This document shows, piece by piece, positions 9,710 to 59,260 of a stretch of 64,000 nt of DNA. The stretch comes from Bryum argenteum (lineage: Eukaryota > Streptophyta > Bryopsida > Bryales > Bryaceae), in assembly GCA_037043015.1 (NCBI GenBank), contig CM073326.1, positions 8,812,345-8,876,344 of the forward strand, written 5' to 3'. Within the stretch, counting starts at the first letter, position 1; every line of letters starts with the position of its first letter. Under the pieces are notes generated by a model that saw only the letters and a list, made by a program, of their open reading frames with translations, was not told the origin of the DNA and ran no database searches. Position numbers and translations under genes: made by a program.

Positions 9710-11420
9710 CTTACATCTGCTTGATCCTCAAACAGATTACATCTGCAACAGAGGAGTCTTTGAATGAATAAACAAGAATCTTCACATTCGCTTCAAGAGG
9801 CATCCGATTTTGAGTAGATTGATGGGCCCCATGAGAGGCAATCCAAAAAATGAGGTATGCCGGTGAGTGTACCCAGCGCACGGTATTCTTTAGTAAAAGG
9901 CGAAAGAATAGTTCGCTTTGAGCTGGGCACCCGGCTGACTGACCGTTCCGATCCAGAGTGCCGAAGGTTATAGGCATCACTTGTCGGCAAGAGTTGCAAT
10001 TCTTATGGGATCAGATAATCAGTTCAAATCTACTTTGAATCAATCATCGAGTTCTTTCAGCCTCCATCACGAGGCCAATGGTGGAGCCTATTAATCTGAC
10101 TGATGTCTGTCGCGCAATGTTCACGTTCGATATATGCAGTGGTTATACATTCCATGGTTGTGCCATGAGGGGTAGGACATCACATGCCACACACTGAGAG
10201 TGACAAGAATCATCCGGGCACCGCTCACGAAGATGCGATTCCAGTTTCGTGATCAGTATTTTGATCGAGTAAAACTGATCGATCTGTAAGTCTCCTCAAT
10301 GGAACAAGTTCTGTGCAATACAGACATCTAGAATCGGTGTTCGAATAATGAGCTTGAGGTAACTTACAGACAGGGCTGCAACCAATCCTTCGACTTGAAC
10401 CCGTACTGGAAGCCCAGATATTCTTATTCTGGTGACTGGTGACTGCTCTGCATATATTCTCAGTGTTGCAATTGTCATTTGCGGACACAGTATGTGAAAC
10501 TCTGCTCAAGGAAAAACAGGAGTACATCATGATAATACTCGAGACGATGTGAAAATTGACCAGTTGGATTCTCTTCGAGATAAATTTTAATTATCAGAGG
10601 ATCCGAACGTGTATCCGGTTTGGGGAATTAGGGTTGGATGAGGGCCGCGCGAACGCGAGCCCCGCTGCCACAAATAATGACGTGTATGCCTCCCGTGGGA
10701 AGATACTACAGTCACCCGGCCCGGTGTGCAATGGGGCAGGCTTCTGTATGCCATCCTCCTTCTGGATCATGGATTGACCCCGCCCAGGTAAGTGACGGAG
10801 AAGACGCACTCCAAACTAGTTGTACGGCACGGTCAAGCCACCAGCGATCAAGAGCTATGGGACATCTTTGGATATTCCGAATCAGCACGTTTTGAGAGCA
10901 GATTCATTGGAGTACACGAACTTCACTGGGTAGTGCTGCCCAGCACAGATCGAGCGGACTGTTCTTTCGCCTTCTACTAAAGAATACCGTGCGCTCGGCA
11001 CACTTACTGTCATACCCCATTTTAAAAATTGCTCCCCATCAATCTGGGCATATCAGACGCTCTTGAGGCAAATGTAATGAATGATCCTTTTTCACCGATT
11101 CACCGCAATGATGATTATATGGTTGTAATTTATTCATGGATCGCGGAACCAGAGCTTCTTGGTCCCTGTAATGCATGCATGAGAGCTCCTTCGGAGCCGG
11201 AGTAATTTATGCAAAGTGCTCCATAATATGAGCTCCACCGTCGAAGGTTTTCCACAGTGGTCACCTCGTTCGTCGAGCATCAATAAGAAAGACTTTCGAA
11301 TGTTCTGATCGAACCGCATCGCGCAATGTGGCAGTTGGGAGCAGCCCTCATTTCCTGCAGTACATTTTAAAATGATGAGAAGGTACAAATGACTGCCATG
11401 AGTCAATGTCCGGATGCCTG
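9710..11420. pseudogene. Two opposed relics of the LRR-kinase 5' module (M1)
   Basis: The plus-oriented piece at about 9,790-9,990 carries the module's hallmark, CCCAGCGCACGGTATTCTTT followed by an AAAGGCGAAAGAATAGTTCGC-like block. The same hallmark appears in the opposite orientation at about 10,935-11,010. Between them (10,640-10,790) is the block GAGGGCCGCGCGAACGCGAG, shared with 13,740 and 15,005, ending in a CCCGCCCAGGTAAGT-like donor. No long frame survives. The arrangement suggests an inverted duplication of receptor-kinase 5' sequence. Confidence 0.5.
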
Positions 11421-11999: not shown

Positions 12000-13100
12000 A
12001 TGCAGATCTTTGCTAGGACGTCGAAAGGCAAGAGCCTGACGCTGGAGGTGGAGAGTACCGACACGGTTGACAGCGTGAAATCGAAAATCCAGGACGCACA
12101 AGGGATACGAGTGGACCAACAGAGATTGATGTTCGCTGGCAAGCAATTGAAAAACGGCTACACACTTGCTGATTACAACATCCTCAGCGAGAGTACGTTG
12201 CACCTGCTGCTTCGCTTGCGAGGAGGTGGGGCGAAAGGACCGACGCTGTTCGTGGATTTGGAAAACGCAAGCTCCTTGAAGACCTGGCCCTTGGGCAAGG
12301 GCCCGAAGTGGCGAACGGTTTGCGAAGGCTTGAACGTTCTCGGCATCTGCACTAACATCCACTGCGAGGCGAACGGCAAGGTTGTTCAGTGTCCGAAGGG
12401 CTTCGTCATACTCAACGTCACCGACCACCTGTTTGATAACCAGTGCCCTGCTTGCGGGCTCTTCGTGAAGGCCTTCTCCTGCGGCTTCTACAGGTGTATG
12501 TGGATGTACGAAGGTCGGAAGGCTTCACCTACTGATTTGCCGACTGCTCCGAAACCCCCAAGCTCTTTACGTACTGCAATCGCCAACCTCTTCACGAGTT
12601 GCCTCAAGCCCGAAGAGCCCGAGATCATGCGGTTTGATCCGAGCAAGGATGCAGCGAAGCGGGAGGTTGTGAGTCCATGGTACAAGACAGAGTCTCAATA
12701 TGACTACTTTGACGCCACGGACAATTTAGTGGAATGGGAGAAGTTACTAATAGTTGCCAAGAAACTTCCACACACGCAAATCAACGACAAATTTGTGGCA
12801 GATGAAGCATTGTCTGACGAGGAGAATGGCTCTAAGGGAAATGTGACCCCTGTGCAGAACGGTTGCCCGATCTGTTTCGGCACACTGGGACAAACGACGA
12901 CACACATCACTTCTTGTGGACACTCTTTTCACCAGAAATGTTTGAGTTCGTGGAAGAAAAATGGAGGGACATCTTGTCCCATGTGCAGAGTGCCACTCTG
13001 CTTGCTTTCCGCTAGCCGTCTTCATGAGTCACCTGTACCGTATCGATTGCAAAGGTCAGCTTCCGACACCGTTCGGAAGGGTGTTGTTGGACGATTGTAG
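12000..13100 (+). CDS. Ubiquitin-like / Cys-rich / RING-H2 fusion protein, 366 aa
   Basis: This is a single-exon gene starting directly with the ubiquitin-like [19 protein letters not shown]. Residues 1-76 are a diverged ubiquitin: K11, K27, K29 and K48 are kept, K6 is Arg, K33 is Ala, K63 is Ser, and the Ile44 patch reads S8/M44/L70. It continues past LRLRGG with a third Gly. Residues 100-175 form a Cys-rich domain with Cys at 117, 122, 131, 149, 152, 161 and 166, and the motifs GLNVLGIC and CGFYRC. I recall similar ubiquitin-fused domains from fungi and protists; a zinc site is inferred. Residues 289-329 are a RING-H2 finger (C289, C292, C306, H308, H311, C314, C326, C329), so E3 ubiquitin-ligase activity is likely. 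Cleavage after the ubiquitin part is possible but uncertain given Gly77. The frame is intact with no introns. Confidence 0.85.
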
Positions 13101-13690: not shown

Positions 13691-14010
13691 TGCGCAGGAG
13701 ATGTAGATGTGATTCCTAATTTGTGAGTTGGGATTGGGTGAGGGCCGCGCGAACGCGAGCCCCCGCTGCCACAAATTATGACGTGCATACCTCCCGTAGG
13801 AAGATGCTACAGTCACCCGGCCCGAAGTGCAATGGTCCAGGTTCCTGTAGGCCATCCACCTACCGGATCATGGATTGACCCCGCCCAGGTAAGTAACAAC
13901 GCGGTCGTGCTCTGAACTACTTGTATGGCACGGTCAAGCCTCCCACCATCAAGAGGTATGGGAGATTTTCGAAATTCCGAATCAGTACAATTCATTACAC
14001 TCAAAGAGCT
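13691..14010 (+). pseudogene. LRR-kinase 5' module relic (M2)
   Basis: This piece contains the GGGCCGCGCGAACGCGAGCC block (about 13,742), followed by GACGTGCATACCTCCCGTAGG and a CCCGCCCAGGTAAGTAA donor-like end near 13,890. The same order of blocks is found at 10,640 and 15,005, and in altered form in the later modules at 28.9, 36.5, 44.9 and 58.9 kb. No continuous frame survives. Confidence 0.5.
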
Positions 14011-14379: not shown

Positions 14380-15290
14380 CATCCGCCTCGAGAGAATCCA
14401 ATCTAGAGTATATTGATGCGCTTCGTGTGAGGCAATCCAAATAATGAGGATCCGGTAAGAGTACCCAGCGCGCTGTAATTTTTGATAGAAGACGACAAAT
14501 CTGTTCGCTTTGAGCTGAGCACCTGGCTGCTTGAAGTACCCAGAAAGAGGGGCGGAAATTATACGCATCAGATGTTAGCATGAGTTGCAATACGGATGCG
14601 GTAAGATAATCCCTCCAAACCCACTCTGAAGCAATCATCGAGTTCTTTCAGCTTCCATGAGGAGGCCGAAATCGAAGCCTACAAGTATAAGTTCTGTCAC
14701 GCAATGTTAACGTACTTTCGATATACACACAGGTTACACAATCCATGGTTGTACCTTGAGGGGTTGGATTTCACGAGCCATACACTCAGAGTGACAAGAA
14801 ATCTCTGGACCACGACCAAGGAGGAGTCCCAGCTTACTTCCCTTCCATGGCACCCACCATCACATGACTGACGAAGCAACTTTCAGAATGAGCTTGAAGG
14901 AAGCGACATATTAGCGATGCTTAACCCCAGTATATCAATCCCAGTATAAGGTGCGGGATGCAAGTGCGAGGTGTGATTCCGGTTTTGTGAGTTGGAATTC
15001 GGTGAGGGCCGCGCGAACGCGAGCCCCGCTGCCACAAATTATGACGTGCATGCCTCCCGTAGGAAGATGCTAGAGTCGTCCGGCCCAGAGTGCAATGGGG
15101 CAAACTCCTCCAGGCCATCCGCCTTCCGGATCATGGAATGACCCCGCCCAGGTAAGTAAGAATTCTGTCGCACTCTGAAGTGCTTGTATGGCACGGTCAG
15201 GCCTAGAGCTATCAAAAAGTATGGGACATCCTTCGATATACCGGATCAGCACAATTGCTTAACCGACAAGTCTCTCTATCTGCTAGCCAT
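14380..15290 (+). pseudogene. LRR-kinase 5' module relic (M3)
   Basis: The stretch near 14,460-14,530 is a diverged form of the block found at 9,865 and 28,560. It is followed by the GAGGGCCGCGCGAACGCGAG block at about 15,003 and a GTAAGTAAG donor-like end near 15,150. The piece leads into the LRR/transmembrane pseudogene that starts near 15,300, so M3 plus that piece may be the remains of one receptor-kinase gene. Confidence 0.5.
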
Positions 15291-15924: not shown

Positions 15925-16130
15925 AATGCTGACGACCATCCTTTCTGACGAAAGTTTGGAGCTTGGAGCCCATGTCGGATCCCAATGCATACGTCCAGAT
16001 TGTCGCCTTGGTCACAGTATTTACTGCATCAATGGTTCGAAACAATGAAACCTGTCCAACCAGCAAAAGCCAAATATGTTCGCCCCATAAAACAAGGACC
16101 TGCATCGATTAGTATATTTCAGGATTACGT
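15925..16130 (+). repeat. Unpaired copy of the sequence that forms the hairpin arms
   Basis: Just after the transmembrane segment comes a block reading GACGACCATCCTTTCTGACG and GGAGCTTGGAGCCCATGTCG. The same text, more diverged, forms the arms of hairpins H1, H2 and H3 elsewhere in the window. Here and at 50.5 kb it is present once and unpaired. This suggests the hairpins arose by inverted duplication of receptor-kinase-linked sequence. Confidence 0.55.
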
Positions 16131-16639: not shown

Positions 16640-17060
16640 AGCCTGCTTGTTCAAGGCCCCGGAGAGGAAGTTCTGCGCCCACTTTGACTCCAACAAACTC
16701 GTGGCGCCGCGCTCCACGGCACTCTCACCACTGCTCCTGTTCATGCTCCCTGCCCTCAATCGAATCAACTTAACACATTACAGTAGCATTTCACTGTCGA
16801 TTGAGGTGATGAGTGTAGCTAATTTGGTCGCCATTTTGCGCTTGAAAGTGCGTAACTTTCCATTAGCAGTGGAATGATACTCATTTTGGGGCATCTGCTG
16901 TGGACGGCGATGTAGTTTATGTAGCAAAAGCTTGAGAGCTTGAGCAGCTATGGCGAGGAGGGACGTCTCGCACCTCTCCATTGTGCGAGGCGATGCCCTG
17001 TTCACATCAACGTCAAATTATCCCTCTTCACACACGGCGGTTTTCGGAAGCCGGCATTCT
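16640..17060 (-). pseudogene. Copy L1: leader and first ~35 codons of the Cdc14/SIN gene
   Basis: On the minus strand the frame reads MNRSSGESAVERGATSLLES then KWAQNFLSGALNKQAA, matching the native gene's start, and then similarity ends. The leader upstream keeps an ATG-started frame from 16,981 to 16,778 (67 codons) that begins MERCETSLLAIAAQALKLLL. Only the 5' end of the gene was copied; exons 2-5 are absent. Confidence 0.75.
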
Positions 17061-18223
17061 CTATCTTGAGTATCGTAGTAGTAAACAGTATTAGATTTGA
17101 TCTTTCACTTAGAGTTATTTGTATGATCAGGGTCAATTTGCATTGGACAAGAGTGTTGTCAAGAAATGTAGGAGAAATTCGAAATGTGATAAGTTGGAAG
17201 TGGAATTCTTGATTAACCCTACACTCGAAATCCCCCAAAATTGCCAAAACTCTTCAAAACCACCCTCTTTCAGTGCAAGATGAAAATTTTTAACTTTTGA
17301 CGTAATCCCAAGTATGTAACTGTAAGATCGTATAAATAACTTGTCCATGTATGTGTGCACCAAAAATTTAGTTTTCAAGTTCCTTACCAAGTGTGAAATC
17401 GTAACATTCAAAGTTGAAAAAAAAAAGTTTTTTCCTTGTTGCAAAATGGGTTTGGAGTAATTTGTGAGTCCAAAAAACCAATTTTGAAAGTAAATTTGAA
17501 CTGTGGCTCCTCACATTCTTGTTCTTGAGTAAGTTAGGAACATGCCTATGAAATGTTTACCCTCATGCCACCCATATAACTTAAAAGAAATGCTTGAATT
17601 TTCACATGGAGGTATGCTGAAATTCAACTTCAAAGGCCCCTCTTTGATAATAGAAATGGCCAGTGAAGAATAATTGGATGAAAGATGCACACGGTGAGAT
17701 CATGCCTTTAAACTATATTTCCAAGTACAAAAAAAAAAAATCTGAAGATAAGTGAAATCTCAATTTTTGGTGAATTTTTGAAGTTCCTTTAATATCTTTA
17801 CTTTTGGGCAGATTTTGAGAAAAAAAAACAAGCAACTACAAGAGGTTAGGAGCTTTTGGGCAAATTTCAAATAGTGTTTTCAAACTTTGACCGTAGATAT
17901 CTCCTAAAGTATGAGGAAGTTTGAAGTAAGAAATGTCACTTTGGAAAAGTATGGAAATAATCTACAATCTACAAAAGGTTTTAATTTTATTCATGCTAAA
18001 TATAGTAAATAAGGGGTTGACTAGACTCCAAACGACCAGTTTTGTGCTCTTTTCAAAAGTAGGGGTTTAGCATGCACCCTTTAAATGAATAGTGTAAATT
18101 GAGCTTTAGAAAAGTTTTACATGAGGAATTCAGGTTAGCAAATCTTCCCCACGTCTCACTCAAAGATACAACCTATGTGATGTTTAAAAACTACTATAAA
18201 GTACATCAAGGATGTTGAGGGGG

Positions 18224-18914
18224 TTAACCCCTAAAGGAGAGAGAGGCCTCAATCGGGTTAATCTGCTTAACCCTTAAGCGCCCACGGTGTCGTTTTTCGA
18301 CATTTTGGATGTGAGGCTCCGTCTTTGGTGCACAACTCCGCTTTCATCCCATCGATTTTTCATCCGCCGTTTTTTTTGCTCAACTCCTCGATGGGTTTAC
18401 TCTACTCCCTCCTTGGATAAATAGTAAAAACCTTGATCCTCAATTTGTGAGAGGGGGCGAAAGAGATTTTTCATGAAAGTTTTGGTGGTGTGATCTTCAC
18501 CCCTTTTTTGCATGGATCTTGAAATCCATACCTCCAAATGGCATGCAACTTGGTGGTCATACTAATTGCCATGCTCCAAAGAAGATCCTACGGTTGGATT
18601 TTCCATTTTCATCTTTTATTTGTTTTTACGCAGTTTTGAAAAAATCAGCAATATTTCCAATTGTTAGGAGCTTTACCCCCCCTTGGGCGTTTAGGGGTTA
18701 AGAAAAGACCACAAAAACTGAAACTTTAAGTAAATGTATCTCAAGATCCGTGTGGTGAAATTTGATAAATTAAAGTTAGTAGGAAAACTATTCAGACCGT
18801 TTAGAACAAGATTCCATGGTTGGATTTCTCAAAATAAATTTCAAAAACAATTTGTTCATGGATTTCAAATATGATCGTATGAAGGTCTTTGTTGAGTTTC
18901 TCCTTTAGGGGTTA
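18224..18914. mobile_element. TTAA-flanked MITE (outer), interrupted by a second MITE
   Basis: The ends are TTAACCCCTAAAGGAGA and its exact complement TCTCCTTTAGGGGTTAA, a perfect 17-bp terminal inverted repeat including the TTAA. The 691-bp span contains a 435-bp MITE at 18,267-18,701, so the outer element is about 256 bp. A related element without the inner insertion lies at about 51,919-52,190 in module D copy 3. TTAA target sites are typical of the piggyBac superfamily. Confidence 0.8.
18267..18701 (+). mobile_element. TTAA-flanked MITE (inner), copy a
   Basis: Ends TTAACCCTTAAGCGCCCA and TGGGCGTTTAGGGGTTAA-type, with TTAA at both sides. The corresponding place in the 51.9-kb copy shows no insertion, only a TTAT/TTAA-like target. 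A 60-codon frame inside it is present in both copies but looks like chance openness of a non-autonomous element. Confidence 0.85.
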
Positions 18915-19096
18915 ACTTCATATTTTTGATACTAGTAAAGAATTTGAGTTTTGGGTTTTGTGAATACATAGGTGCAAATTAGGTTGTATTTTCTAGAACC
19001 ACATTTCTCAAATTTTATTACTTAATTAAATTTATAAAGTGCATAAGAATCTTGAGTGTGTAGTTACGGAACCATTTGGTAATAAGTCTTTCTACC

Positions 19097-19532
19097 TTAA
19101 CCCCTAAACGCCCAAGGGGGGGTAAAGCTCCTAACAATTGGTAATAATGCTGATTTTTTCAAAACTGCGTAAAAACAAATAAAAGATGAAAATGGAAAAT
19201 CCAACCGTAGGATCTTCTTTCGAGCATGGCAATTAGTATGACCACCAAGTTGCATGCCATTTGGAGGTATGGATTTCAAGATTCATGCAAAACAGGGGTG
19301 AACATCACACCACCAAAACTTTCATGAAAAATCTCTTTCGCCAACTCTCACAAATTGAGGATCAAGGTTTTTACTATTTATCCAAGGAGGGAGTAGAGTA
19401 AACCAACCGAGGAGTTGAGCAAAAAAAAACGGCGGATGAAAAATCGATGGGATGAAAGCGGGGTTGTGCACCAAAGACGGAGCCTCACATCCAAAATGTC
19501 GAAAAACGACACCGTGGGCGCTTAAGGGTTAA
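19097..19532 (-). mobile_element. TTAA-flanked MITE, copy b, inverted relative to copy a
   Basis: This is nearly identical to the element at 18,267-18,701 but in the opposite orientation, with TTAA at both ends. Module D copies 2 and 3 lack it at the matching place (30,230 and 52,535, after TTTCTACC). The two copies, 395 bp apart, form a large inverted repeat. The high identity suggests recent activity. Confidence 0.9.
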
Positions 19533-26310: not shown

Positions 26311-26654
26311 ATTAAAATGGAAACTAGGATTAGAATTTAGAGTCGCTTAAATAATCAAATGACATAAGTAAAATGAATTAGAGTTTTTAGAAGTTTTTTA
26401 TAAAACCTTTACTCAAAATTTGCAAAGTTAAGCAAATCTATGTTAATGAGTCATTTAGATGGCTCACAGAGAGAAACGGTTCTCCTTGGTAGAATGGAAT
26501 GATATTTGCATTTCTTTAAGTATGAAAAGTCAACTGATTCCTGGTTTTTTCGGATGACAATTATGCAGGCTCAACAGGTGATGATCGTGGTGTGAGCAGC
26601 CGACATCTTATGATGTCATGCACAGATTACTCTATGACCAAGTACACCATCCAA

Positions 26655-26990
26655 CATGGGCTCCAAGTTTCCGCACTTTCATCCAAAAGAACAACCGCTT
26701 TATCAACTCCAGACTTTGATGGAGACTCTAATGAGCTCATCAGTAAACTCTTCCTTTGGAGCGAGACGGGAAACTCTACATTATGGATGGAACAAAAGTT
26801 GGAGTGATAGTCTTGCACTATACTAAATCAAGATTATCACCCCCTAACTTTTGTTCCCTCCACAATGTAGAGTTTCTCGTCTCGCCCACAAGGAGGAGTT
26901 TGCTTATGTGTTCACAATGGTCCCCAACAACGTCCGGATTGAGTTGATTTAGCATTTGAAAGTTTGTGTTGAAAGTTTAGTGCTTAAGGC
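26655..26990. repeat. Hairpin H1, copy 1: long inverted duplication, MIRNA-like
   Basis: The core arms 26,761-26,815 and 26,829-26,885 pair almost throughout around a 13-nt loop; both carry GGAACAAAAGTT and AAACTCTACATT or their complements. Weaker pairing continues outward on each side to about 26,690 and 26,960. The outer arms derive from the same sequence found unpaired at 15.9 and 50.5 kb. The shape is that expected of a young plant MIRNA or hairpin-siRNA locus. Copies exist at 34.4 and 57.0 kb. No expression evidence is available here. Confidence 0.8.
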
Positions 26991-27144
26991 CATGTTAGAT
27001 TCTGATAAATGTGGAGAGGTTGTCAGCCTAGTCACTATTCGCTGCATCAAGTCTTTGGAAGTTGTAACCATGTTGAACAAGCAATTTAGCAAATGATTTT
27101 GTCCCATGTGATATAGGCTTGCATTGAGATATGACATGGTCTAC

Positions 27145-27460
27145 AAACTCCGAACAAACTCCAAACTTTCAATGGAAAGAACAACCGCTGAATTAACACG
27201 AATCGAGACCTCGATTAAGACTCCAAGCAAGATTGTTTACATGTGGCTAAAGAGGAAGCGCTATATTGTGTAAGGGAACAGAAGTTGAGGCAAGTATCCA
27301 AGAATCTTGCACTCAACTTCTGTTCCCTAACTTCCATGATGGAGAGCATCCCCTCTGACCTCTGACCCCGATTAAACAGTTTGCTCATAGAGTCTTCATC
27401 TATGTCCGAGTTCGAGTTAATTTCACGGAGGTTCTTTCCGTTGAAAGTTTGAACTTTAAA
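27145..27460. repeat. Hairpin H2, copy 1: long inverted duplication, MIRNA-like
   Basis: The core is GGGAACAGAAGTTGAGGCAAG (27,274-27,294), an 11-nt loop, and CTTGCACTCAACTTCTGTTC plus CC (27,306-27,327), with one bulge. Outside the core, 27,145-27,260 is an inverted, diverged duplicate of 27,340-27,460: both contain the ACTTTCAAYGGAAAGAAC-like word or its complement. Copies lie at 34.9 and 57.5 kb, with the core largely preserved. Confidence 0.8.
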
Positions 27461-27624
27461 GCGTAGAGCCCGGAGCATAGGTGCAGATTGTCTGCCTGCC
27501 TGGTTACAATATTCTCCACATCATGGCCTTGAAAATTATGAACCCTCTTTAACCGGCAGAAATCATACATCTACGTGAAGCTCGTAGTATATTGTAATGA
27601 TATCTTTGAAACTTCAACCCATTA

Positions 27625-28017
27625 CCAAATGATAGGAATGAGTTTCTCATCATTTTGCGCTCTTGAGATGATTGTTTCTTGCTCCAGCCTACTGCAGTGA
27701 ACAAGAAGAATTTGTTGGAGAGTAGTCGTGAAAAGAGAAAGATTCCAACTGTGCTTTGTCAAGGATGAACTATTTCGTGATTGCGCAAGAAATCGACATA
27801 AGTGATGTTCAATGGAATTTATGGTGGGCTAATACCAATACTCGGTTCTATTCTATCCTGATACTTGAAGCTCCAATCAGTCTATTTCTCTCTGCAGGTG
27901 AAATATCCCCAGTGGCCTCATCTTCAAAAGAACTTCAATGGCTTGAGCACTTTTATGTATTTTTTTAGAAGTTTCAAAACTTTCTGCATCAATGTCTACA
28001 TATTTAACATTTAACCC
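27625..28017 (+). pseudogene. Module F, copy 1 (LRR-kinase-derived)
   Basis: The plus frame around 27,775-27,970 reads VIAQEIDISDVQWNLWWANT and then SAGEISPVASS. The same text recurs at 35.41, 43.83 and 57.99 kb and is a diverged form of the LRR-like piece at 16.2 and 50.8 kb. It is open over about 70 codons, but no complete domain is present. I regard it as duplicated receptor-kinase debris. Confidence 0.45.
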
Positions 28018-28345
28018 CTGCTCATGCTCCCTGCCCTCAATCAAAGCAGATCAACACATGGTTATAGCAGCATTCAACTGTCGTCGATTGAAGCCATGAT
28101 TGTGTAGCTAATTATGCGCTTGAAAGTGCGAGCTTTCTAATTGGCAGTGGAATGGTAGTCATTGTGGGGTATCTGATATTGAAAGGGAGGTCGTTTGAAT
28201 GGCAAAAGCTTGAAAGCTTGATGATGTAGAGCAGCTATGGCGACCAGGGTCGTCTCGCACCTCTCTGTTGTGCGACCGACAGGCGGCAATGCCCTGTTCA
28301 CAATATACCTCATTTTTCCCTTTTAACATTCCGGTTTTCAGACGC
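28018..28345 (-). pseudogene. Copy L2a of the Cdc14/SIN leader
   Basis: The minus strand repeats the leader with the conserved frame TERCETTLVAIAALHHQAFK. The ATG codon seen in the native leader reads ACA here, so the upstream ORF has lost its start. Only traces of the coding start (GCTCATGCTCCCTGCCCTC on plus) remain. Confidence 0.6.
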
Positions 28346-28399
28346 TGGAGTTATCTATTTTGAGTGGTGACTAATATCAGATTCTTTCTAGACTTATTT

Positions 28400-29349
28400 G
28401 AATATTTCGCGACAATTTATATGAGTAGTGTAACATAAAAGAAGAAGAAGCGGCGCCTCCAACAGAGCTTGTCCTGACAGTGCAATTCCACTCCTGTTTG
28501 ATTGTTGTCATTGGTGGGCCCTGTGAGGGGCAATCCAAAAACTGGGGTATGCTGGTGAGCGTGCCCAGCGCACGGTATTCTTTAGTAAAAGGCGAAAGAA
28601 TACTTCGCTCTGAGCTGAGCACCCAGCTGCTTGATCGTTGTCGTCGAGTCCCCTGGCAATTATGGAGGATAAATGTAAGTGCATCCTGCAACACGTATGG
28701 GATTCAACATAATTATTCAATCTCTACAACATTATACACTGCCAAGCAATGGAAGACGCGCAATACTTTGAATTCTGCACAGCAACGTACTGCAATGGCG
28801 TCTCGTCCTGCAACGGTCGAAGCATTTCATGCGAATTAGGAGTCTCCTATTCCGAGGAATATTCACGAGTTGTATGAGATCCCCGCTGTGAGCGCAAATC
28901 ACGACGAATATGCTTCCCGTAGGAATATAGTAGAATAGCAATGAGGCAGACCTCGAGGCCAGCTTCAGTTCTCGAACGCCAAGGTGAGCACTTTCCTTAA
29001 ATCGCTGTTTTGAGCCGAGCTCTTGATAGTTTGTGCTTTCCAACTGCTGACCGATAAACGAATTCCGCATCTCTCAGAAGTGCTGCCTCGTGGATCGAGC
29101 CAGGACGAAACGATCCTCCATTCTTGGAAGACCAGCAACGATCCTGCATTCTTGGAAGAACAGCACCGCATATCGTAGTGCTAATTGGGTTGAACAGAAT
29201 GGGCGCGGTTCGGACGGCTTCTGTAGCTTGGCAGGTATTGCCTGCGGGGAATGGCAAGGGGAGAATCGATTCACTGCTGTGAATCTTCCTTCTCTGGACC
29301 TCACCGGTCCCCTACCTCCACGAATGTCCGGCCATTCAGATCTCCAGGT
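28400..29349 (+). pseudogene. LRR receptor-like kinase 5' exons (M4)
   Basis: The piece begins with a conserved leader (CAGTGCAATTCCACTCCTGT near 28,478) and the GCGCACGGTATTCTTTAGTA block. It ends with an LRR N-terminal cap reading GFCSLAGIACGEW and LDLTGPLPPRMSGHSDLQ, immediately followed by a CCAGGTACTG donor. Cap motifs of this form precede leucine-rich repeats in plant receptor kinases. The LRRs are absent: antisense Cdc14/SIN sequence follows directly. Confidence 0.65.
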
Positions 29350-32819: not shown

Positions 32820-33590
32820 GACCGCATAGTGGGCGGTCAGAGGTGATGTGAGGGTCACGTACGTACAGGCAAGGTCTTCAAGAGACAAGGGTAGAGGGAC
32901 GTGTTCTCAAAGTAACGTAGAGGCAAGGTTTCAGAGACGGGGGTAGGCGGTGAAGGCAGTTTTCATTGCGAGGGACAACGAGTTGGGAGGAGGAGGTTAT
33001 CTGGAGACAGGGGAGGAGGTTATCTAGAGGCAGTCAGGAGGCTTGAATTGGGGATGGTTTGAGGGATAGCAAGCAGGCGAAAAGGGGATCGTTTGAGAGA
33101 TACAAAGAAGGCGAAAGGAGGATGGTTTGAGAGATACAAAGAAGGCGAAAGGGGGATGGTTTGAGAGATACAAAGAAGGCGAAAGGGGGATTGTTTGAGA
33201 GATACAAAGACGGCAAAAGAGGCAGGTTTTTTAGAGGCCTTCAGTAGGCCAGAAGCGGGTTTTTTAGAGGCCTTCAGAGGAAGGTTGTTTCTCAAAAGAA
33301 AAAGACGACGAGTATCGCACATGCGAGGTTTCTAAAAACATAGAGTAAGCGTAAGAAGGGTTTTTGTTACTTTCGAGAGGGTGAGAGTAAGCGGAGATGG
33401 GAGGTTTTCAAGGAACGACAAAAATGTAGAGAAGAAGGCTGTCAAGAGGAGCGAGCAAACCGACCGAGTGAGGTTTTCAAGAGACAAAGAGTAGGCGAAG
33501 AGCGAGGATTTTAAGAGACATCGTGTAGGCGGACAAAGAGGTCTTAAGAAACATTGAATTGGCGGAGATTTGTGAAGGGGGTTGTAAAAA
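32820..33590. repeat. Module G, copy 2, with a 33-bp tandem array
   Basis: Between about 33,048 and 33,215 a 33-bp unit containing TTTGAGAGATACAAAGAAGG repeats about five times with little divergence. It keeps an 11-residue periodic frame open on the minus strand (SLKRSPFRLL-like). The flanks hold looser repeats of GTTTTCAAGAGACAAAGAGT, shared with 55.6-56.1 kb. Confidence 0.75.
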
Positions 33591-34140
33591 ACGACAATTA
33601 CAACTCGGCGTAGGTAAACATTCTCAAACATCTCAGTTGAACATTGTGTTATTGATATGCAAGGACTGTCTAGGTGCACTTTGTGTGGGCTTCTTTTGTA
33701 ATTGCTTATACATGTTCTGTTTGATAAGTGGTGCTACTACTGCTCTCCTCACTCAGAGTTGTTCATATTTGAAAATACCAAATATTGATTTTCATTGATC
33801 AGATTGCAAGAAAAACTCAACTTTATGTCAAACACTTCTTTACAACTCTCCAGCTTCGAGAGAAATTTGAGGCCCAAAAGTGTATCGGGAGCTCTTCACT
33901 TGGTGCTTCCGTTCGCTTTTCACCTTCAAGATGGTGTATCGGCGCCATTGCTGGTGCAGCTACTAAAAAGGCGGCATCACCAGGACAACTGCGCTCCCTA
34001 ACTTGTAAGCTACTCTTCCTCGTTGATAGTGTTGCTACTTTGTTGCTAAGAATTTTGAAATCATAAATAATGACTTACTGAAAGAACTAACATCAGAACG
34101 GCGTCTAGTATCTCTTATTCGTAAAGAAATTTGTGACGGA
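33591..34140. repeat. Module E, copy 2
   Basis: This aligns with 24,330-24,990 and 56,180-56,720. One plus frame runs about 93 codons but is not conserved in the other copies, so I do not call a gene. Confidence 0.5.
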
Positions 34141-34314
34141 GAATGGTTTTCCTCGGTAGAATAAATGATACTTGCATTCCTTTAAACACAAAAACTCAAA
34201 AAGTAAGTTGATTCTTGGTTTTTTCTTGTGCAGGGTCAAGAGGTGACAATCGTGGACAGGTACCCGCAGACATCTTATAAATCATTACACTGGATGACCA
34301 AGCAGACCATTCAA

Positions 34315-34605
34315 CATGGGCTCCAAGTTCCGAACTTTCATCCGAAAGGACAACCGCTTTATCAACTCCAGACGTTGATGGAGACTCTTCTGAGCTCATG
34401 AGTAGATTGCTTCTTTTGAGCAAGACAAGGAACTCTCCATTGTGGATGGAACAAAAGTTGGAGTGATACTCTTGCACTATACTAAATCAAGATTATCACC
34501 CCTAGCTTTTGTTCCCTCCACTACGTAGAGTTTCTCCTCTCGCCTAGAAGGAGGAGTTTGCTTATGTGTTCTGAATGGTCTCCAATAACGTCCGGTTGAG
34601 TTGAT
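34315..34605. repeat. Hairpin H1, copy 2
   Basis: The core arms lie at about 34,418-34,474 and 34,488-34,544, with the same CACTATACTAAAT loop as copy 1. Arm changes relative to copy 1 leave most pairs intact. The outer arms repeat the duplicated receptor-kinase-linked text. Confidence 0.75.
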
Positions 34606-34799
34606 TTAGCATTTGAAAGTTTGTGTTTCAAATAGTTTAGTGCTTGAGGCCATGTCAGATTCTGATAAATGTGGACAGATTGTCTCCCTAATCACTATTT
34701 GATGCATCAAGTTTTTAGAAACTATAACCTTGTTCAATGAGCAATTTAGCAAATGATTTTGTCCCATGTGACATATGCTTGCATCGAGATATGCCAATG

Positions 34800-35115
34800 T
34801 CATCGTCTACAAACTCCGAACTTTCAAGTGAAAGAACCACTGCTAAATCAACACGAATTCAGCAAGACGTCAATTGAGACTCCAAGCAAGACTGTTTGTA
34901 TGGGGCACAAGAGGAAGCGCAATACTGTGTAAGGGAACAAAAGTTGAGGCAAGTATCCAAAACTCTTGCACTCTACTTCTGTTCCCTTCCATGATGGAGA
35001 GCATCCCCTCTGACCTCTGACCCCGATTAAACAGTCTGCTCATAGAGTCTTCATCTATGTCCGAGTTAATTTCACGGAGGTTCTTTCCGTTGAAAGTTTC
35101 AAGTTTAAAGCGTAA
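34800..35115. repeat. Hairpin H2, copy 2
   Basis: The core is 34,933-34,986 (GGGAACAAAAGTTGAGGCAAG, loop, CTTGCACTCTACTTCTGTTC plus CC). It has two or three more mismatches than copy 1. The outer inverted duplication is still clear. Confidence 0.75.
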
Positions 35116-35261
35116 ATTCCAAAGCATAGGTGCAGATTGTCTACCTGCCTGGTTACAGTATTCTCCGCATCATGTCCTTGAAAATTATGAACCCTCTTTA
35201 ACCGGCAAAAATCATACATCTACGTTTAAGCTCGTAGTATATTGTAATGGTATCTTCGATA

Positions 35262-35652
35262 CCAAATGACAGAAATAAGTTTCTCATCTTTTTGAGCTCT
35301 TGAGATGATCGTTTCTCGCTCAGGCCTACTGCAGTGAACAAGAAGAATTTGTTGGAGAGTAATCGTGGAAATAGAAAGGTTCCAACTGTGCTTAGTCAGG
35401 GAAGAACTATTTAGTGATTGCGCAAGAAATCGAAACAAGCGATGTTCAATGGAATATTTGGTGGGCTAATACCGAAACTCGGTTCTATTTCGTCCTGATA
35501 CTTGAAGCTCCAATCATGAGTATATTACTTTCTGCAGGTGAAATATCCCCAGTGGCCTCATCTTTAGAAGAGCTTCAATGCCTTGAGCAGTTCTATGTAT
35601 TCTTCAGAAGTCTCAAAACTTTCTGCATCTATGTCTACATATTTAACATTTA
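35262..35652 (+). pseudogene. Module F, copy 2
   Basis: The frame VIAQEIETSDVQWNIWWANT continues to SAGEISPVASSLEELQCLEQ and remains open for about 79 codons. It is nearly the same as copies at 27.8, 43.8 and 58.0 kb. The function is not recognised. Confidence 0.45.
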
Positions 35653-36015
35653 ACGCCTGCTCATGCTCCCCGTCCTCACTCAAAGCAGATCAGCACATGA
35701 TTATAGCAGCATTCAACTGTCGTCGACTGAAGCTACGATTGAGTAGCTAATTTGGTAGCCATTTTGCGCTTGAAAGTGCGAAATTTCCAATTGGCAGTGG
35801 AATGGTAGTCATTGTTGGGTATTTGATTTTGATAGGGAGGTCGTTCGAATGGCATAAGCTTGAAAGCTTGATGATCTAGGGCAGCTATGGCGACCACGAT
35901 CGTCTCGCACCTCTCTATTGTGCGGGAGACAGGCAGCGATGCCTTGTCTACACCAATCTCTAATCTTCCCTTTTCACATGGCGGTTTTCAGACGCTGGAG
36001 TGATCTATTTTGAGT
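35653..36015 (-). pseudogene. Copy L3 of the Cdc14/SIN leader
   Basis: The leader frame is open through IERCETIVVAIAALDHQAFK and on to FKRKMATKLATQS, but its ATG reads ATA. The coding start is reduced to traces. Confidence 0.6.
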
Positions 36016-36640
36016 GGTGACTACTATCAGATTCTTGTTCACTCTATTAGACTTATTTGTATATATAGGGACAATTTACATGAGTACTGTTACATGAAAA
36101 AGAACTGGCGCCTTAAACAGAGCATGTCCTGACAGTGCAATTCCACTCCTGTTTGTTTGTTGTCATTGGTGGGCCCTGTGAAGGGCAATCCAAAAATTCG
36201 GGTATGCTGGTATATGTGCCCAGTGCACGGTATTCTTTAGTAAAAGGCGAAAGAATATTTCGCTGTGAGATGAGCACCCAGCTGCAAGATCGGTGTTATC
36301 GAGTTCCCTGGCAGTAATGGAGGATGAATGTAAGTGCGTCCTGCAACAAGTATGGGTTTCGACAGAGTTACTCAATCTCTACAACATTATCGACTGCCGA
36401 GCAATGGAAGATGCCCACTACTTTGATTTCTGCACAGCAGTGTATTGCAGCGACGTATCGTCTTGCAACGGTCGAAGCATTTCATGCGAATAAAGCGTCT
36501 CCTTTTCCGAGGAATATTCACCAGTTATATGAGAGCCCCGCGTGAGCACAAATCAGGACGAAAGTGCTTTCCGAAGGAAGATATGAATACGTCTGGCTCT
36601 GCTTTCCAACTGGTAAACGATACAAGAACTCCGCATCTCT
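36016..36640 (+). pseudogene. LRR receptor-like kinase 5' exons (M5), ending in hairpin H3
   Basis: The same leader and blocks as M4 are present, with a frame reading CVLQQVWVSTELLNLYN and DVSSCNGRSISCE that resembles an LRR N-terminal cap. At about 36,645 (after GCATCTCTC) the gene text stops matching the LRR-cap exon of the 45.1-kb copy, and the H3 hairpin begins. Confidence 0.55.
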
Positions 36641-37060
36641 CTATGTTGCGGTGGAATGAGAAACTGGGGTGAGCATCCCACTCAGTATCATGCGTTCTAG
36701 TAGAGTAGTAGATCAATGATCTATGTATACTACACTAAATAGGTAGATTAGTGTTAGATTTTTATAAGATTTGAAAATGCTATAAGTTTTTACTTTTGGT
36801 ACAAAAAAATGACCAAGAATGTTAATTCCAATACTATGTAAGGATCCCCATCTTGATCAATGTAGAGGGTAAAAATATTTACGAACAGTAAAAACTTATA
36901 ACATGTTTATATAAATTAGTGTATCTAACACTAATCTACCTATTTAGTGTAGTTGAGTGCAAGATATGGCATGCTCACCCCAGTTTCTATTTCCATTAGA
37001 ACGTAGTGTTTCTCAATCGGCCGAAAATGAACACTTTGCTATCAACGTCCAGATTTGAAT
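36641..37060. repeat. Hairpin H3, copy 1, with a MITE in its loop
   Basis: The left arm GAAACTGGGGTGAGCATCCC (from 36,659) pairs with GGCATGCTCACCCCAGTTTC-like sequence at about 36,969-36,987. The uninterrupted form is at 59,082-59,182. A 217-bp foldback element occupies the loop. The right arm continues into the text that is unpaired at 15.9 and 50.5 kb. Confidence 0.75.
36733..36949. mobile_element. 217-bp foldback MITE with TA target duplication
   Basis: The ends CACTAAATAGGTAGATTAGT and complement extend to 27 perfect base pairs. Pairing then continues, with an interruption, into GTAAAAACTTATA. The flanking TA (36,731-36,732 and 36,950-36,951) is single in the empty site at 59.14 kb (TATACTAGTTGAG). 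A TA duplication fits Tc1/mariner-like elements; the CACTA start could instead suggest a CACTA derivative. Confidence 0.9.
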
Positions 37061-37746
37061 TGATATGACGACCATCATTTCTTACGAAAGTTTGGAGCTT
37101 GGAGGTCATGTCAGATCCCAATGCATATGTCTTGCTTGTTGCCTTGGTTACAATATTTACTGCATCAAAGGTTATATGGGACACATTAGAAGTATATAGT
37201 GCACAAATTCTATTGCAAACAGAGTAGGCATTCTTTTGGAGTACGTTATTTAGAGTAGGCATTAGAGTAGGAACCAAGAGCACTCTGCCGTTCCATGTAT
37301 CCATGTGGGAATTGTATTTAATTTGAAGCGAAAACATTCTATAATATGAGTGTTCTATATCATACTGATTGATTCCAATCTTTGAGATACACTAACTTGA
37401 AAAAGGTAAATATTAGGTACTCTACGTCGTCTACCTATCTTTAGGGATCCTATTCAATCTACAAATGGAATGCAAGAAAATCACTGAAAAATAGTTTATA
37501 AATTTTGAGAGAGTGAAATCAATAACTTGATCTGAATTAGATGTAGATATATGTTTTTCAAGAAAATCATTAATATAGACTAACTGATGTAGTGATGTTG
37601 ATATAAAATTTTCAAAATGGAGTGGTATTCTTCACATAAAAAGTTACACTAAAACTTGGAGGATCATATAATGTATGCACTATTTTAATTCTAGGAAATG
37701 TAATAAGATAAGATCAAAAATTTACCAACCAATATCATGTATGCAC
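37061..37746. repeat. Duplicated non-coding stretch between H3 and the PLATZ block
   Basis: This is nearly identical to 59,260-59,971, apart from small indels. A minus-strand frame of 113 codons (37,337-36,996) is interrupted in the other copy. No gene is assigned. Confidence 0.6.
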
Positions 37747-38692: not shown

Positions 38693-39487
38693 TCACGGAC
38701 GCGGTATAAGAAACGGATGCGGAGGGGGCACCTGATGCGGAGGCGGAGGGAGCAGTTGAAACTGAGGCGGAGGGGGCAGCTGATGCGGAGGTGGAGGGAG
38801 CAGTTGAAACTGAGGCGGAGGGGGCAGGTGATGCGGAGGTGGAAGGAGCAGTTGAAACTGAGGCGGAGGGGGCAGCTGATGCGGAGGTGGAGGGAGCAGT
38901 TGAAACTGAGGCGGAGGTGGAGGGAGCAGTTGAAACTGAGGCGGTAGGTGCACCATATTTAGATCGTATGCCAGTAGGCATTGAATAGAACACACTTTGG
39001 CTTGCATCACATTCTGTTGTTGTAGTACAGGATGCATCGCATTCCTGAAGTTACGATGACAACCTAGACAAAGAAGCGTAGGGTGCATTATTGTCGGCGG
39101 TCGTGATCGCAAGAAGTACACTGTGTCCCTGCGAAAAGCAAATGCAGCTACTATCGCAGTCTGAACTAGTCCTGGCAGGTCATTCTGTTTTACACAGAAT
39201 TGCCCGACCTTGAGGTAAATCCTCAGACGTGGATGCTGACCGTGAAGACCGTTGTATGGATTAAACCATTCTCTGCAAAGACCGCCTACTCGGCAGGTTT
39301 TATCGAAGAAACAACGACGCCGTCGAACGCTATACGGTTGGTTGCAAACATTTTGAGGTGGGATTTCATGCATATATTGCGCATGAACGCAAGCCGCCAA
39401 CATAGCCCGATCGTCGGGTGAGAGCAGTTAATACACAGGAGCTGCGGGTGGATTCGCAGGCGCCGCTGGTGGAATCAGTGCGGCCAT
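38693..39487 (-). pseudogene. PLATZ-like zinc-finger gene, broken copy
   Basis: This is the paralogue of the gene at 61,616-62,257. Its frame starts at the equivalent ATG (39,487) and hits TAA where the other copy has CAA (Gln20). Relative to the other copy it has lost seven residues, including one Cys of the zinc-binding region, and another Cys reads Ser (QPYSVRRRRCFFDK). The C-terminal Pro/Gln repeat is expanded to about five 16-residue units. A shorter product from an internal Met (39,403) remains possible, but zinc binding would be impaired. Confidence 0.7.
38717..38945 (-). repeat. 48-bp coding minisatellite in the PLATZ-like gene
   Basis: About five units of 48 bp (16 codons, PPPPQFQLLPPPPHQL on the minus strand) occur, against one unit in the copy at 61.64 kb. 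All six frames stay open across it, producing several misleading long frames. This is a clear case of repeat expansion after duplication. Confidence 0.9.
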
Positions 39488-40424: not shown

Positions 40425-40575
40425 AACACGTAATTCGTTATAATGGTACTATTCACTGATTTCGACAAATGTGCGTTTAGGTGGAGTCGAGCTGAATGTA
40501 CCCACAGAGTACATTTGGCTCAACTCAAGCACAATTTGATAATCTGAATATTCCCATTATAACAAATTACGTGTT
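40425..40575. mobile_element. TTAA-flanked MITE, 151 bp
   Basis: The ends are AACACGTAATTCGTTATAAT with two more bases, and the complement, with one mismatch in 22. TTAA is present at both sides (40,421-40,424 and 40,576-40,579) and once in the empty site of copy 2 near 63,140 (ATATTTAAGG). This is a different family from the CCCCTAA-ended elements. Confidence 0.9.
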
Positions 40576-44499: not shown

Positions 44500-45380
44500 C
44501 AAAAGATGAAGAAGCGGCGCCTGAGACAGAGCTTGTCCTGACAGTGCAATTTCCTTCTGTTTGATTGTTGTCATTGGTGAGGGGCAATCCAAAAATTCGG
44601 GCATGCTGGTGAGCGTGCCCAGCGCACGGTATTCTTTAGTAAAAGGCGAAAGAATAGTTCGCTCTGAACTGAGCACCTAGCTGCTGGATCGATGCCGTCG
44701 AGTTCCCTGGCAGTTATGGAGTATGAATGTCATTGCGTCCTGCAAAACGTATGGGATTCAGCAGAGTTAATCAATCTCTACAACACTGTCTACTGCAAAG
44801 CAATGGAACATGCTCACTACTTTGAATTCTGCACAGCAGCGTATCGCAATGGCGTATCGTCTTGCTATGGTCGAAGCATTTCATGCGAATTAAGAGTCTC
44901 CTTTTCCGACGGAGGAATATTCACTAGTTCTATGAGAGCCCCCGTGAGAGTAAATCACGACGGATATGCTTCCCGTACGTAGGATGATAGTAGGATAGCA
45001 ATGAGGCAGACCTCGAGGCCAGCTTCAGTATACGGACGCCGAGGTGAGCACTTTTCTTAAATCGCTGCTTTGAGCATAGCTCTTGATAGTTTCTGCTTTC
45101 CAACTGCTGACCAATACACGAATTCCGCATCTCTCAGAATTGCTGCCTCGTGGATCGAGCCAGGACGAAACGGTCCTCCATTCTTGGGAGAACAGCCCCG
45201 CATATTGTAGTGCTAATTGGATTGAACAGAATGGGCGCGGTTCGGACGGCGTTTGTAGCTTGCCAGGAATTGCCTGCGGGGAATGGCGAGGGGAGAATCG
45301 AGTCACTGCTGTGATACGTTCTTCTCTGGACCTCACCGGTCCCCTACCTCCTTAAATCTCCGGCCTCTCAGCTCTCCAGG
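44500..45380 (+). pseudogene. LRR receptor-like kinase 5' exons (M6)
   Basis: The first cap-like piece reads CVLQNVWDSAELINLYN and GVSSCYGRSISCELRV. The second reads WENSPAYCSANWIEQN, GVCSLPGIACGEWRGEN and SLDLTGPLPP, a typical LRR N-terminal cap, and ends at a CCAGGTACTG donor (about 45,380). This is the best-preserved 5' part; its downstream LRRs probably continue at 49.09 kb. A stop directly after LPP and frame shifts mark it as broken. Confidence 0.65.
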
Positions 45381-50445: not shown

Positions 50446-51190
50446 GATCGTACATGGCAACCATTTATGCAGTAAATATTGACGACCATCCTTTCTGACG
50501 AAAGTTTGGAGCTTGGAGCCGATGTCGGATCCCAATGCATACGTCCAAATTGTCGATTTGGTCACAGTATTAAATTACTGCATCAATGGTTCGAAACTAT
50601 GAAACCTGTCCAACCAGCAAAAGCCAAATATGTTCGCCTCATAAAACAAGGACCTGCATCGATTAGAACATTTCAGGGTTACGATTGAAACCTCGACCTG
50701 TTTTCAAATGATAGAAACGAGTTTCTCAGCAACCCTTTAAAAATGACTGATTCTCGTTGCTCCAGCCTTCTGCAGTGAATGGAGTATGTAATGATTGTGC
50801 AAGAAATCAAAACAGATGCTCTTGATTGGAATGTTTAGTTGGCTGTTATCAAACCTCGGTTTCAATGGTCCTTTGACTGAGCTCCAGTCGGTCTGTGAAG
50901 AGGAAGTATCCCAGTCCTCACATTCATGGCTGCATATAATTTTACTAGTCGTAATAAACGACTTGTGGGTCACACTTCTTTGCTTAATTAAGTCTCAAAA
51001 CTGCAGAGTCCGTGTAGGTTTTTTGAAAACATATTCTGTGGGAGGATGCCTTCTTGTAACGTCAAACGGAAACATGAGACACGGACAATTGAAGAGATAA
51101 ATTTCACGCTACAAGTAAGGAAGCTTTCCACAAAACTCTTGAAAGAATAAGTACGTACATCCTTTGCCTGGAATGTTACATTCGTAACAT
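50446..51190 (+). pseudogene. Unpaired hairpin-parent text plus LRR-derived module F, old form
   Basis: The block at 50,480-50,690 is the partner of 15,925-16,130: one copy of the sequence that elsewhere forms hairpin arms, with a plus frame reading TTILSDESLELGADVGSQC. The stretch from 50,780 to 50,940 matches 16,220-16,380 and contains LRR-like NLGFNGPLTELQ. Confidence 0.5.
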
Positions 51191-55559: not shown

Positions 55560-56180
55560 AGACCGCATAGTGGCCAGCCAGAGGTGATGTGAAGGTGGCG
55601 TAAAAGAAAGGTTTTCAAGAGATAGGGGTAGAGGGACGTGTGGTGAAGGTAACGTAAAAGTAAAGGTAGGGTTTTCCAGACAGATACAGAGGGAGATGGA
55701 GGGAGATGGTGAAGGCAGTTTTGCAAGGAACAACGAGTTGAGGAAAGGAGGTTATTTAGAGACAGTGAGGAGGCTCGAAAAGGGGATCGTTTGAGAGATA
55801 GCAAGAAGACAAAGGAGGTAGGTTTGTTAGAGGCCTTGAGTAGGCGGAGGAAGGTTGTTTTTCAAAAGAAAAAGACGATGAGTAGATCGCATTGGCAAGG
55901 TTTACAGAAACATGGAGTAAGCGATGAGGGTTTGTTACTTTTGAGAGGGTGAGAGTAAGCGAAGACGAGAGGTCTTTCAAGCAACGACAAGAATGTAGCT
56001 CAAAGAAGGCTTTCAAGAGAATTGAGCACGCCGAGAGTGGGGTTTTCAAGAGAAGCGAGCATGCGGAGAGTGAGGTTTTCAAGAGACAAAGAGTAGGCGA
56101 AGAACGAGGATTTCAAGAGACAGCGTGTAGGCAGACAAAGAGTTCTTAATAAATATTAAATTAACAGAGATCCTTGAAGG
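55560..56180. repeat. Module G, copy 3
   Basis: This holds loose repeats of AGAGACAAAGAGTAGGCGAA and GTTTTCAAGAGA. It lacks the ordered 57-bp array of copy 1 and the 33-bp array of copy 2, so each copy has amplified a different unit. Confidence 0.6.
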
Positions 56181-56720
56181 GGTTTGTAAGAGACGACTGT
56201 AACAACTCGGCGTAGGTAAACATTCTCAAACCTCTCTTGTTGTGTTATTGATATGCAAGGACTAGATGCACTTTGTTGGGGCTTCTTTTGTAATTGCTTA
56301 TACATGTTGTTTTTGATAAGTAGTGCTACGAATGCTCTCCTCACTCAGAGTTGTGCATATATGAAAATACCAGATATTGATTGCAAGAACAACTCAACTT
56401 TGTGTCAAACACTTCTTTCACAACTCTCTGGCTTTGTGCACGAGAGAAATCTGAGGCAAAAATGTGTATACAGAGCTCTTCACTTGGTGCTTTGGTCTAC
56501 TAACATGTTTGCTTTTCACCTTCACATGGTGTATCTGCTACTGAAGAGGTGGCATCACCAAGACTGACCGTGCTGCCTAACTTGTAAGCTACCCTTCCTC
56601 CTTATAGTGTCAACTACTTTGTTGCTAAGAATGTTGAAATCATAATGATTCCTTGAAAGAACTGACATAAGAACGACGTCTAGTTTCTCTAATTTGTAAG
56701 GTAATTTGTGACGTAGAACA
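56181..56720. repeat. Module E, copy 3
   Basis: This aligns with 33,590-34,140. Frames are broken. Confidence 0.5.
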
Positions 56721-56869
56721 GTTCTCTTTGGTAAAATAAATGATACTTGCATCCCTTAAAGTACGAAAAGTTGGTTCATATTTTTACAGTTTGTGCAGGG
56801 TCAAGAGGTGACGATCGTGGTGTCCGCAGCTGACATCTTATAAACATACCAAGGAGAACATTCAACATG

Positions 56870-57165
56870 GGCTCCATGTTCTGGACAAACTTCCATCCAA
56901 AAGGACAACGGCTTTATCAACTCCAGACGTTAATGGAGACTCTTCTGAGCTCATGAGTAGATTGCTTCTTTTGAGCAAGACAAGGAACTCTCCATTGTGG
57001 ATGGAACAAAAGTTGGAGTGATATTCTTGCACTATACTAAATCAAGATTATTACCCCTAGTTTTGTTCCCTCCACTACGTAGAGTTTCTCGTCTCGCCCA
57101 GAAGGAGGAGTTTGCTTATGTGTTCTGAATGGTCTCCAATAACATCCGGATTGAGTTGATTAAGC
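56870..57165. repeat. Hairpin H1, copy 3
   Basis: The core arms lie at about 56,974-57,030 and 57,043-57,098, with the same loop sequence as the other copies. Pairing is kept through GGAACAAAAGTTGGAG and its partner with a few extra mismatches. Confidence 0.75.
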
Positions 57166-57354
57166 ATTTGAAAGTTTGGGTTGAAAGTTTAGTGCTTGGG
57201 GCCACGTTAGATTCTCATAAATGTAGACATATTGTGTGCAAGCCTAATTAGTATTCGGTGCATCAAATCTTTGGAAAATATTAACATGTTCAGTGAGCAA
57301 TTTAGCAAATGATTTTGTCTCATGTAACATAGGCTTGCATTGAGATATGACATC

Positions 57355-57640
57355 GTTTACAAACTCTGAACTTTCAACCGAGAGAACAACCGTTAAATGA
57401 ACACGAATCGAGACGTTGATTGAGGCTCCATGCAAGAATGTTTATATGGGGCCAAAGAGTAAACTCTCCACTCTGCAAGGGAACAGAAGTTGAGGCAAGT
57501 ATCCAAGAATCTTGCACTCTAATTCTGTTCTCTTCAATGATGGAGAGCATCCCCTCTGACCCCGAATAACCACTCTGCTCATAGAGTCTTCATCAACGTC
57601 CGACTTCGAGTTAATTTCACGGAGGTTCTTTCCGTTGAAA
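57355..57640. repeat. Hairpin H2, copy 3
   Basis: The core is 57,479-57,532. The left arm is identical to copy 1 and the right arm has a few changes. The outer duplication is still visible around 57,370 and 57,630. Confidence 0.75.
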
Positions 57641-57799
57641 GTTTCAAGTTTAAAGCGTACATCCCGAAGCATACGTCCAAACTGCCTGCCTGCCTGGTTA
57701 TATTATTCTCCGCATCATGTCGTTGGAAATTATGAACCCTCTTCAACCGGGAAAAATCATACATCTACGTGAAGCTCGTAGTATATTGTAATGATATCT

Positions 57800-59080: not shown

Positions 59081-59260
59081 AAGAAACTTGGGGTAAGCAT
59101 CCCAGTATCATGCACTCTAGTAGATCATGATCTATGTATACTAGTTGAGTGCAAGATATGGGATGCTCACCCGAGTTTCTATTTCCATAAGAACGTAGTG
59201 TTTCTTAATCGGTCGGCCGAAAATAAACACTTTGCTATCAACGTCTCCAACAACGTCCGG
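59081..59260. repeat. Hairpin H3, copy 2 (uninterrupted)
   Basis: The arms GAAACTTGGGGTAAGCATCC (59,090 onward) and its near-complement ending about 59,182 enclose a loop containing GATCATGATC. Weaker pairing extends about 20 bp further. The transcript of the LRR-kinase 5' piece, if made, would run straight into this stem (inference). Confidence 0.8.

Follow-up and report, generated by a model that had tools for sequence, protein, structure and literature searches.

Paralogous fold-back hairpins in a duplicated Bryum argenteum locus keep their pairing beyond chance, possibly through DNA-level copying

A long hairpin that shows compensatory changes is commonly read as a small-RNA gene. For plants, the birth of MIRNA genes by inverted duplication has been reviewed (Models 1 and 3, PMC10004981), and the genes treated under these models combine an inverted duplication, a long imperfect fold-back and tandem paralogues. 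Hairpins that are made and mended by template switching have also been described (PMC8794818). In the cases presented there, among them mammalian microRNA loci and rRNA genes, reverse-complement copying builds or repairs the stems, such that compensation arises without two independent mutations. MITEs are a further class of short palindromic DNA of similar size.

In this study, we have analyzed a 64-kb stretch of the Bryum argenteum genome (the window, taken at its full length) that carries three types of hairpin, H1, H2 and H3, in tandemly duplicated units. All three features named for the inverted-duplication MIRNA genes are present in this locus, yet it differs from the genes described under those models in that no founder or target gene was found, the rate of change is nearly neutral and H1 and H2 are symmetric with respect to strand. 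The repair of stems by reverse-complement copying would be shared with the template-switch hairpins of PMC8794818; here, however, the stems are long and lie in tandem plant units, and no clean single switch could be isolated. With H1 and H2 each present three times and H3 in addition, pairing restored above chance, and a rate and mismatch strand bias that look near neutral, the locus is a compact test case for the question whether hairpins can be kept perfect by DNA-level copying alone, a matter of relevance to the origin of microRNA genes.

The units that carry the hairpins are listed in Table 1. Unit 1 aligns with unit 2 at 84.7% identity (26475-28929 to 34142-36583) and with unit 3 at 79.7% (26475-28937 to 56717-59012), and the tandem segmental duplications reach far past the hairpins (e.g., 33180-36732 with 55776-59143, in addition to blocks on either side). 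The hairpins do recur near 34.3-35.1 and 56.9-57.7 kb, as the original prediction held, and since their copies lie within these longer matches, the recurrence is explained by ordinary duplication, with no need for renewed birth or transposition.

Table 1. Position of the hairpins, their duplicated units and other features in the window.
Feature	Position	Strand	Remark
Duplicated unit 1 with H1 and H2	26475-28937	+	
Duplicated unit 2 with H1 and H2	34142-36583	+	
Duplicated unit 3 with H1 and H2	56717-59012	+	
Hairpin H1, unit 1	26703-26942	.	Palindrome; loop about 26816-26828
Hairpin H2, unit 1	27156-27457	.	Palindrome; 20-bp core 27270-27289/27312-27331, 95% complementary
Hairpin H1, unit 2	34361-34605	.	
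Hairpin H2, unit 2	34809-35107	.	Weakest fold, z -7.2
Hairpin H1, unit 3	56887-57190	.	
Hairpin H2, unit 3	57361-57651	.	
Hairpin H3, unit 2	36652-36995	.	Loop split by MITE-like insert 36733-36949, TA on both sides
Hairpin H3, unit 3	59064-59198	.	Third paralogous fold-back, judged by alignment
Sequence related to the hairpin unit (tip of outer arm, right flank)	15939-16082	+	By LRR-TM ORF ending 15932; the predicted parent text
Second copy of text related to the hairpin unit	50488-50636	+	46 nt beyond the end (50442) of another LRR-TM ORF
U1 snRNA matches	13738-13896, 15002-15159, 10638-10795		Above Rfam gathering score
U5 snRNA matches	9824-9936, 36171-36283, 28516-28628, 58594-58706, 44567-44682, 10930-11051		Above Rfam gathering score

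H1 and H2 are inverted duplications, in agreement with what had been proposed. In unit 1, the self-inverted alignment of H1 (26703-26942) spans 243 columns at 76.5% identity and that of H2 (27156-27457) 321 columns at 70%, and their folds lie far beyond those of 100 dinucleotide shuffles (z -17 and -152.2 kcal/mol for H1; z -12 and -130.7 kcal/mol for H2). All six H1/H2 copies fold strongly, with z between -7.2 and -18.9. When the whole window was scanned with 20 shuffles per segment, z fell below -6 in 14 of 456 segments; eight of these lie on H1, H2 or H3 and the remaining six are other palindromes or repeats of the window. Near-perfect cores had been claimed for both hairpins. The H2 core is 95% complementary over 20 bp, and the H1 core (26708-26800/26846-26938) is 80% complementary. 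The very long H1 core is a peculiarity of the unit-1 copy: of the 103 pairs predicted from this copy itself, all are kept in unit 1 and 91 in each of units 2 and 3.

The distinction of two kinds of hairpin was correct as far as H1 and H2 are concerned, but a third kind, H3, also exists. A profile built from the three H1-H2 regions and used to find relatives in the window also matches 59061-59375, in reverse 59324-59039, and the partner of this region in unit 2, 36975-37172; the same search found no H3 in unit 1. In unit 3, the core stretch of H3 folds with z -9.1; with more sequence included, z is -5.4. The arms of H1, H2 and H3 align with one another, most clearly around the cores, and judged from these alignments the three hairpins are paralogous fold-backs. 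The insert in the H3 loop of unit 2 is a palindrome with the terminal repeat CACTAAATAGG, located between two TA, and its site is uninterrupted in unit 3. Another palindromic insert (40425-40575) has a TTAA target-site duplication and an empty site in unit 3 near 63140. A separate segment of unit 3 (62502-62812), which includes a 119-bp palindrome (62692-62810) and an apparent second terminal-repeat pair, is missing from unit 2.

Pairing in H1 and H2 is, in part, maintained beyond chance, and the earlier view that it is kept across copies was supported, with compensatory substitutions among the changes. In the RNAalifold consensus structure of the six aligned H1/H2 copies (75 pairs), both sides have changed in 17 pairs against a shuffled mean of 11.7 (2 of 500 shuffles reach 17). 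Counted as cells, 32 have changed on both sides in H1 and H2 together against a mean of 15.3 (0/500), and the covariation score is 0.269 versus 0.173 (0/500), with controls that favor the structure in that it is derived from the same alignment, whose rows form two related groups. Sliding the structure along the alignment left at most four cells changed on both sides; for further pair types, in contrast, the alignment (37) does not exceed the shuffles (36.2; 225/500). The excess of pair-restoring changes also emerges when substitutions are polarized, those of H1 by H2 as outgroup and the reverse, with five of the six outgroup rows agreeing and with a parsimony that is rough at such divergence. 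For Watson-Crick pairs, H1 has 11 gains and 13 losses against 3.1 and 20.7 under the null model (gains reached in 0/2000), and H2 has 7 gains (P 0.028) and 14 losses (P 0.0005) against 3.2 and 22.1. If G.U is taken as paired, H1 has 4 gains (P 0.024) and 10 losses against 1.2 and 16.5 under the null model, and H2 has 6 gains (P 0.077) and 12 losses against 3.2 and 16.0. The P-values of the gains range from 0/2000 to 0.14 when four or all six outgroup rows are required to agree.

The divergence within and between units does not fit the young array that had been proposed. In best local alignments the H1/H2 arms are 74-80% identical and thus differ by 20-26%, with 61-70% identity in their outer part, whereas outside the hairpins the divergence between units is 11-14%, leaving gaps aside. 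If the arms began identical, the inversion therefore predates the unit duplications. Apart from H1 of units 2 and 3, the palindromes as a whole change about as fast as their flanks. Between units 1 and 2, H1 differs at 27 of 238 sites (11.3%) compared to 12.5% in the rest of the unit, and between units 1 and 3 the values are 11.8 and 13.7%. H2 differs by 8.9-13.1% across the three comparisons, against 11.3-13.6% in the rest; the values for units 1 and 2 are 8.9% in H2 and 12.9% elsewhere in the unit (P 0.058). For H1 of units 2 and 3, only 6 of 237 sites differ compared to 12.5% outside (P 2.4e-7, with the palindrome itself as the test window), and the tract of low divergence runs from about 26697 to about 26949 in unit-1 coordinates, roughly the length of the palindrome.

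Within H1, the core and loop differ at 5/88 sites between units 1 and 2 (P 0.048), 6/87 between units 1 and 3 (P 0.077) and 2/87 in the third comparison (P 0.003); the corresponding counts for the H2 core are 5/71, 8/71 and 9/71 (P 0.2, 0.72, and 0.71). Eight of the 89 columns of the H1 core and loop are variable compared to 25.6% overall, and 46 of 2374 stretches of this length are equally low, a constancy that is partly due to the homogenization of units 2 and 3. As a benchmark, the U5 snRNA match in the hairpin unit, which may be an RNA gene, is slower in only one of three comparisons (P 0.46, 0.016, and 1), so that the power of the rate test is low.

Under selection at the RNA level, a structure is expected to tolerate G.U over A.C mismatches on the transcribed strand. 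H1 and H2 have no such bias: columns with G.U on the plus strand and columns with A.C on the plus strand stand at 22:16 in H1 (P 0.21) and 23:23 in H2. H3 leans to G.U on the plus strand (3:1 and 5:1), and the sum over all eight hairpins, whose copies are not independent, is 61:46. The H3 counts and the U5 benchmark weaken a neutral interpretation. The near-flank rate, the symmetry of G.U and A.C and the near-identity of H1 in units 2 and 3 together favor copying of DNA over selection on RNA. The low-divergence tract of units 2 and 3 is as expected for conversion between copies. Its length, close to that of H1, would also suggest that the palindrome itself attracts conversion.

Possible traces of copying between arms are found in H1 of unit 1. 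Of the 12 changes at 26746-26783 that are specific to this copy, eight agree with the hairpin's own opposite arm, compared to 0 of 7 elsewhere in the arm. The patch is suggestive of a single template switch but not a clean one, and we did not accept it as such, since the other 4 of the 12 changes run against pairing and an equally dense or denser cluster of changes (about 28295-28339) is located away from all hairpins. With H2 as outgroup, some changes of the patch fall in the lineage of units 2 and 3. Sites that group the arms by hairpin number 13, 8, and 11 per unit, those that group them by arm 1, 3, and 3, and cross-grouping sites 2, 3, and 0; the excess of the first class could alternatively result from independent inverted duplications.

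We propose that H1, H2, and H3 are old fold-back DNA held palindromic by copying from arm to arm and by conversion between copies, an explanation to which we assign about an even chance of being right. The fold-backs would have arisen before the tandem segmental duplications that now carry them. The arms would remain complementary mainly through occasional copying of one arm from the other in replication or repair, by short template switches or arm conversion, and through conversion between copies in different units. Template switching would be the molecular step, with no RNA product under selection. If transcribed, such hairpins would be substrates of Dicer-like enzymes and thus raw material for small-RNA genes. 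Maintenance of the palindromes by DNA mechanics alone, with template switching within copies and conversion between copies over tracts of about palindrome length, is a tentative extension that we consider rather doubtful. If it were true, compensatory changes in fold-backs would be no evidence for RNA function, and long hairpins could survive neutrally as a standing supply of proto-MIRNAs.

The main alternative is that (proto-)MIRNA or hairpin-RNA genes of recent origin are clustered here; their transcripts would be cut by Dicer-like enzymes, and the small RNAs would act on genes elsewhere. We regard this as possible, if on the doubtful side. The hairpins have the extensive arm pairing of the stem-loop of a plant MIRNA gene and fold strongly, and few 89-nt stretches of the unit vary as little as the H1 core and loop. 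These features, the compensatory changes in H1 and H2 and the leaning of H3 to G.U are all in line with this alternative. In addition, a 16-nt core pattern derived from these same hairpins, GGAACARAAGTTGRRG, is exact in all six 5' arms of H1 and H2; five of the six opposite arms carry it with one or two mismatches and the sixth has no match. The identity as MIRNA genes put forward in the original prediction is nevertheless not supported by the rate of the whole palindromes, which is about that of the flanks, by the G.U and A.C counts of H1 and H2, or by the searches. No Rfam family reached its gathering score on the hairpins in the whole 64-kb window. When unit 1, unit 2 and the H3 copy of unit 3 were searched laxly against Rfam, all matches were weak. 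The nearest family for H1 was MIR2275 (30.4 bits on the plus and 29.3 on the minus strand, and 24.1 in unit 2, against a gathering score of 60.5), which we judge to be similarity in hairpin shape; the best matches for H3, mir-9243 (26.2 versus 83) and MIR828 (24.7 versus 69), were rejected. Six candidate 21-22-mers, each in one register, have no complementary site with a penalty of at most 5.5 in the 64-kb window outside the hairpins. Six core strings in RNA letters had no match in the literature and six in DNA letters retrieved unrelated papers only, and an exact 20-mer of the H1 core is absent from viral and genome contig collections, neither of which includes plants. Since young MIRNA genes may change neutrally, the hairpins may have a small-RNA role all the same.

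Two further origins were weighed against arm-to-arm copying of old fold-backs. Insertion of MITE-like fold-back elements that were subsequently duplicated would account for the palindromic form, and MITE-like inserts of similar size do occur in the window. These inserts, at 36733-36949 (TA) and 40425-40575 (TTAA), show an empty site and a target-site duplication, whereas all copies of H1 and H2 share both flanks, so that neither of the two can be seen there; within the window the hairpins are copied only by segmental duplication, and none of six further palindromes matches H1-H3. We consider this origin improbable. Less credible still is the idea that an LRR receptor-kinase gene underwent inverted duplication and left hairpins that now silence its family. 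It was suggested by the match of the unit to two texts that start just beyond the stops of LRR-TM ORFs (profile positions 796-939 with 15939-16082, E 7.7e-15; 795-939 with 50488-50636, E 1.1e-12), which also match the profile at about 23-66 in reverse. In unit 1, the forward match corresponds to about 27432-27575, i.e., 26 nt of H2 arm end and 118 nt of flank, and the reversed match to 26649-26692, the outermost left side of H1. The shared text thus consists of arm tips and flank; in the profile alignment the hairpin cores have no match at these loci, and for the cores the predicted kinase parentage is not supported. Both LRR-TM ORFs have LRR matches that miss the Pfam cut-off, and a Pfam scan of 30 ORFs, which are part of those in the window, revealed no kinase domain. 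Because the flank of the unit keeps matching the LRR locus further outward (28017-28365 with 16736-17071, 72.8%), the LRR piece looks as if it had been joined to a hairpin unit that is itself truncated. As a candidate for a coding parent, a 131-aa ORF on the minus strand of unit 2 (36999-37391) spans arms and flank read outside-in and belongs to no Pfam family; its substitutions per codon position are 1, 6, and 9 compared to unit 3, and 14, 18, 20 and 16, 18, 22 compared to the two LRR-locus copies.

Besides the hairpins, the window contains matches to U1 and U5 snRNAs (Table 1). With up to two mismatches allowed, the usual plant snRNA-type upstream element was not found within about 100 bases before the nine matches, hence some of them may be pseudogenes. 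One occurrence of the element left of H1 (26649-26659, two mismatches) was discarded, as the 24 hits in the window are not above chance (18.9 expected). An inverted pair of 437 bp (18267-18702 and 19096-19532) has 97% identity, above most repeats of the window. One ORF at 12000-13100 combines an N-terminal ubiquitin domain with a C-terminal RING finger. Two duplicated minus-strand ORFs have proline-rich repeat tails of unequal length; in Pfam, the one at 38696-39427 has no match and the one at 61619-62464 has a single match with E 0.17.
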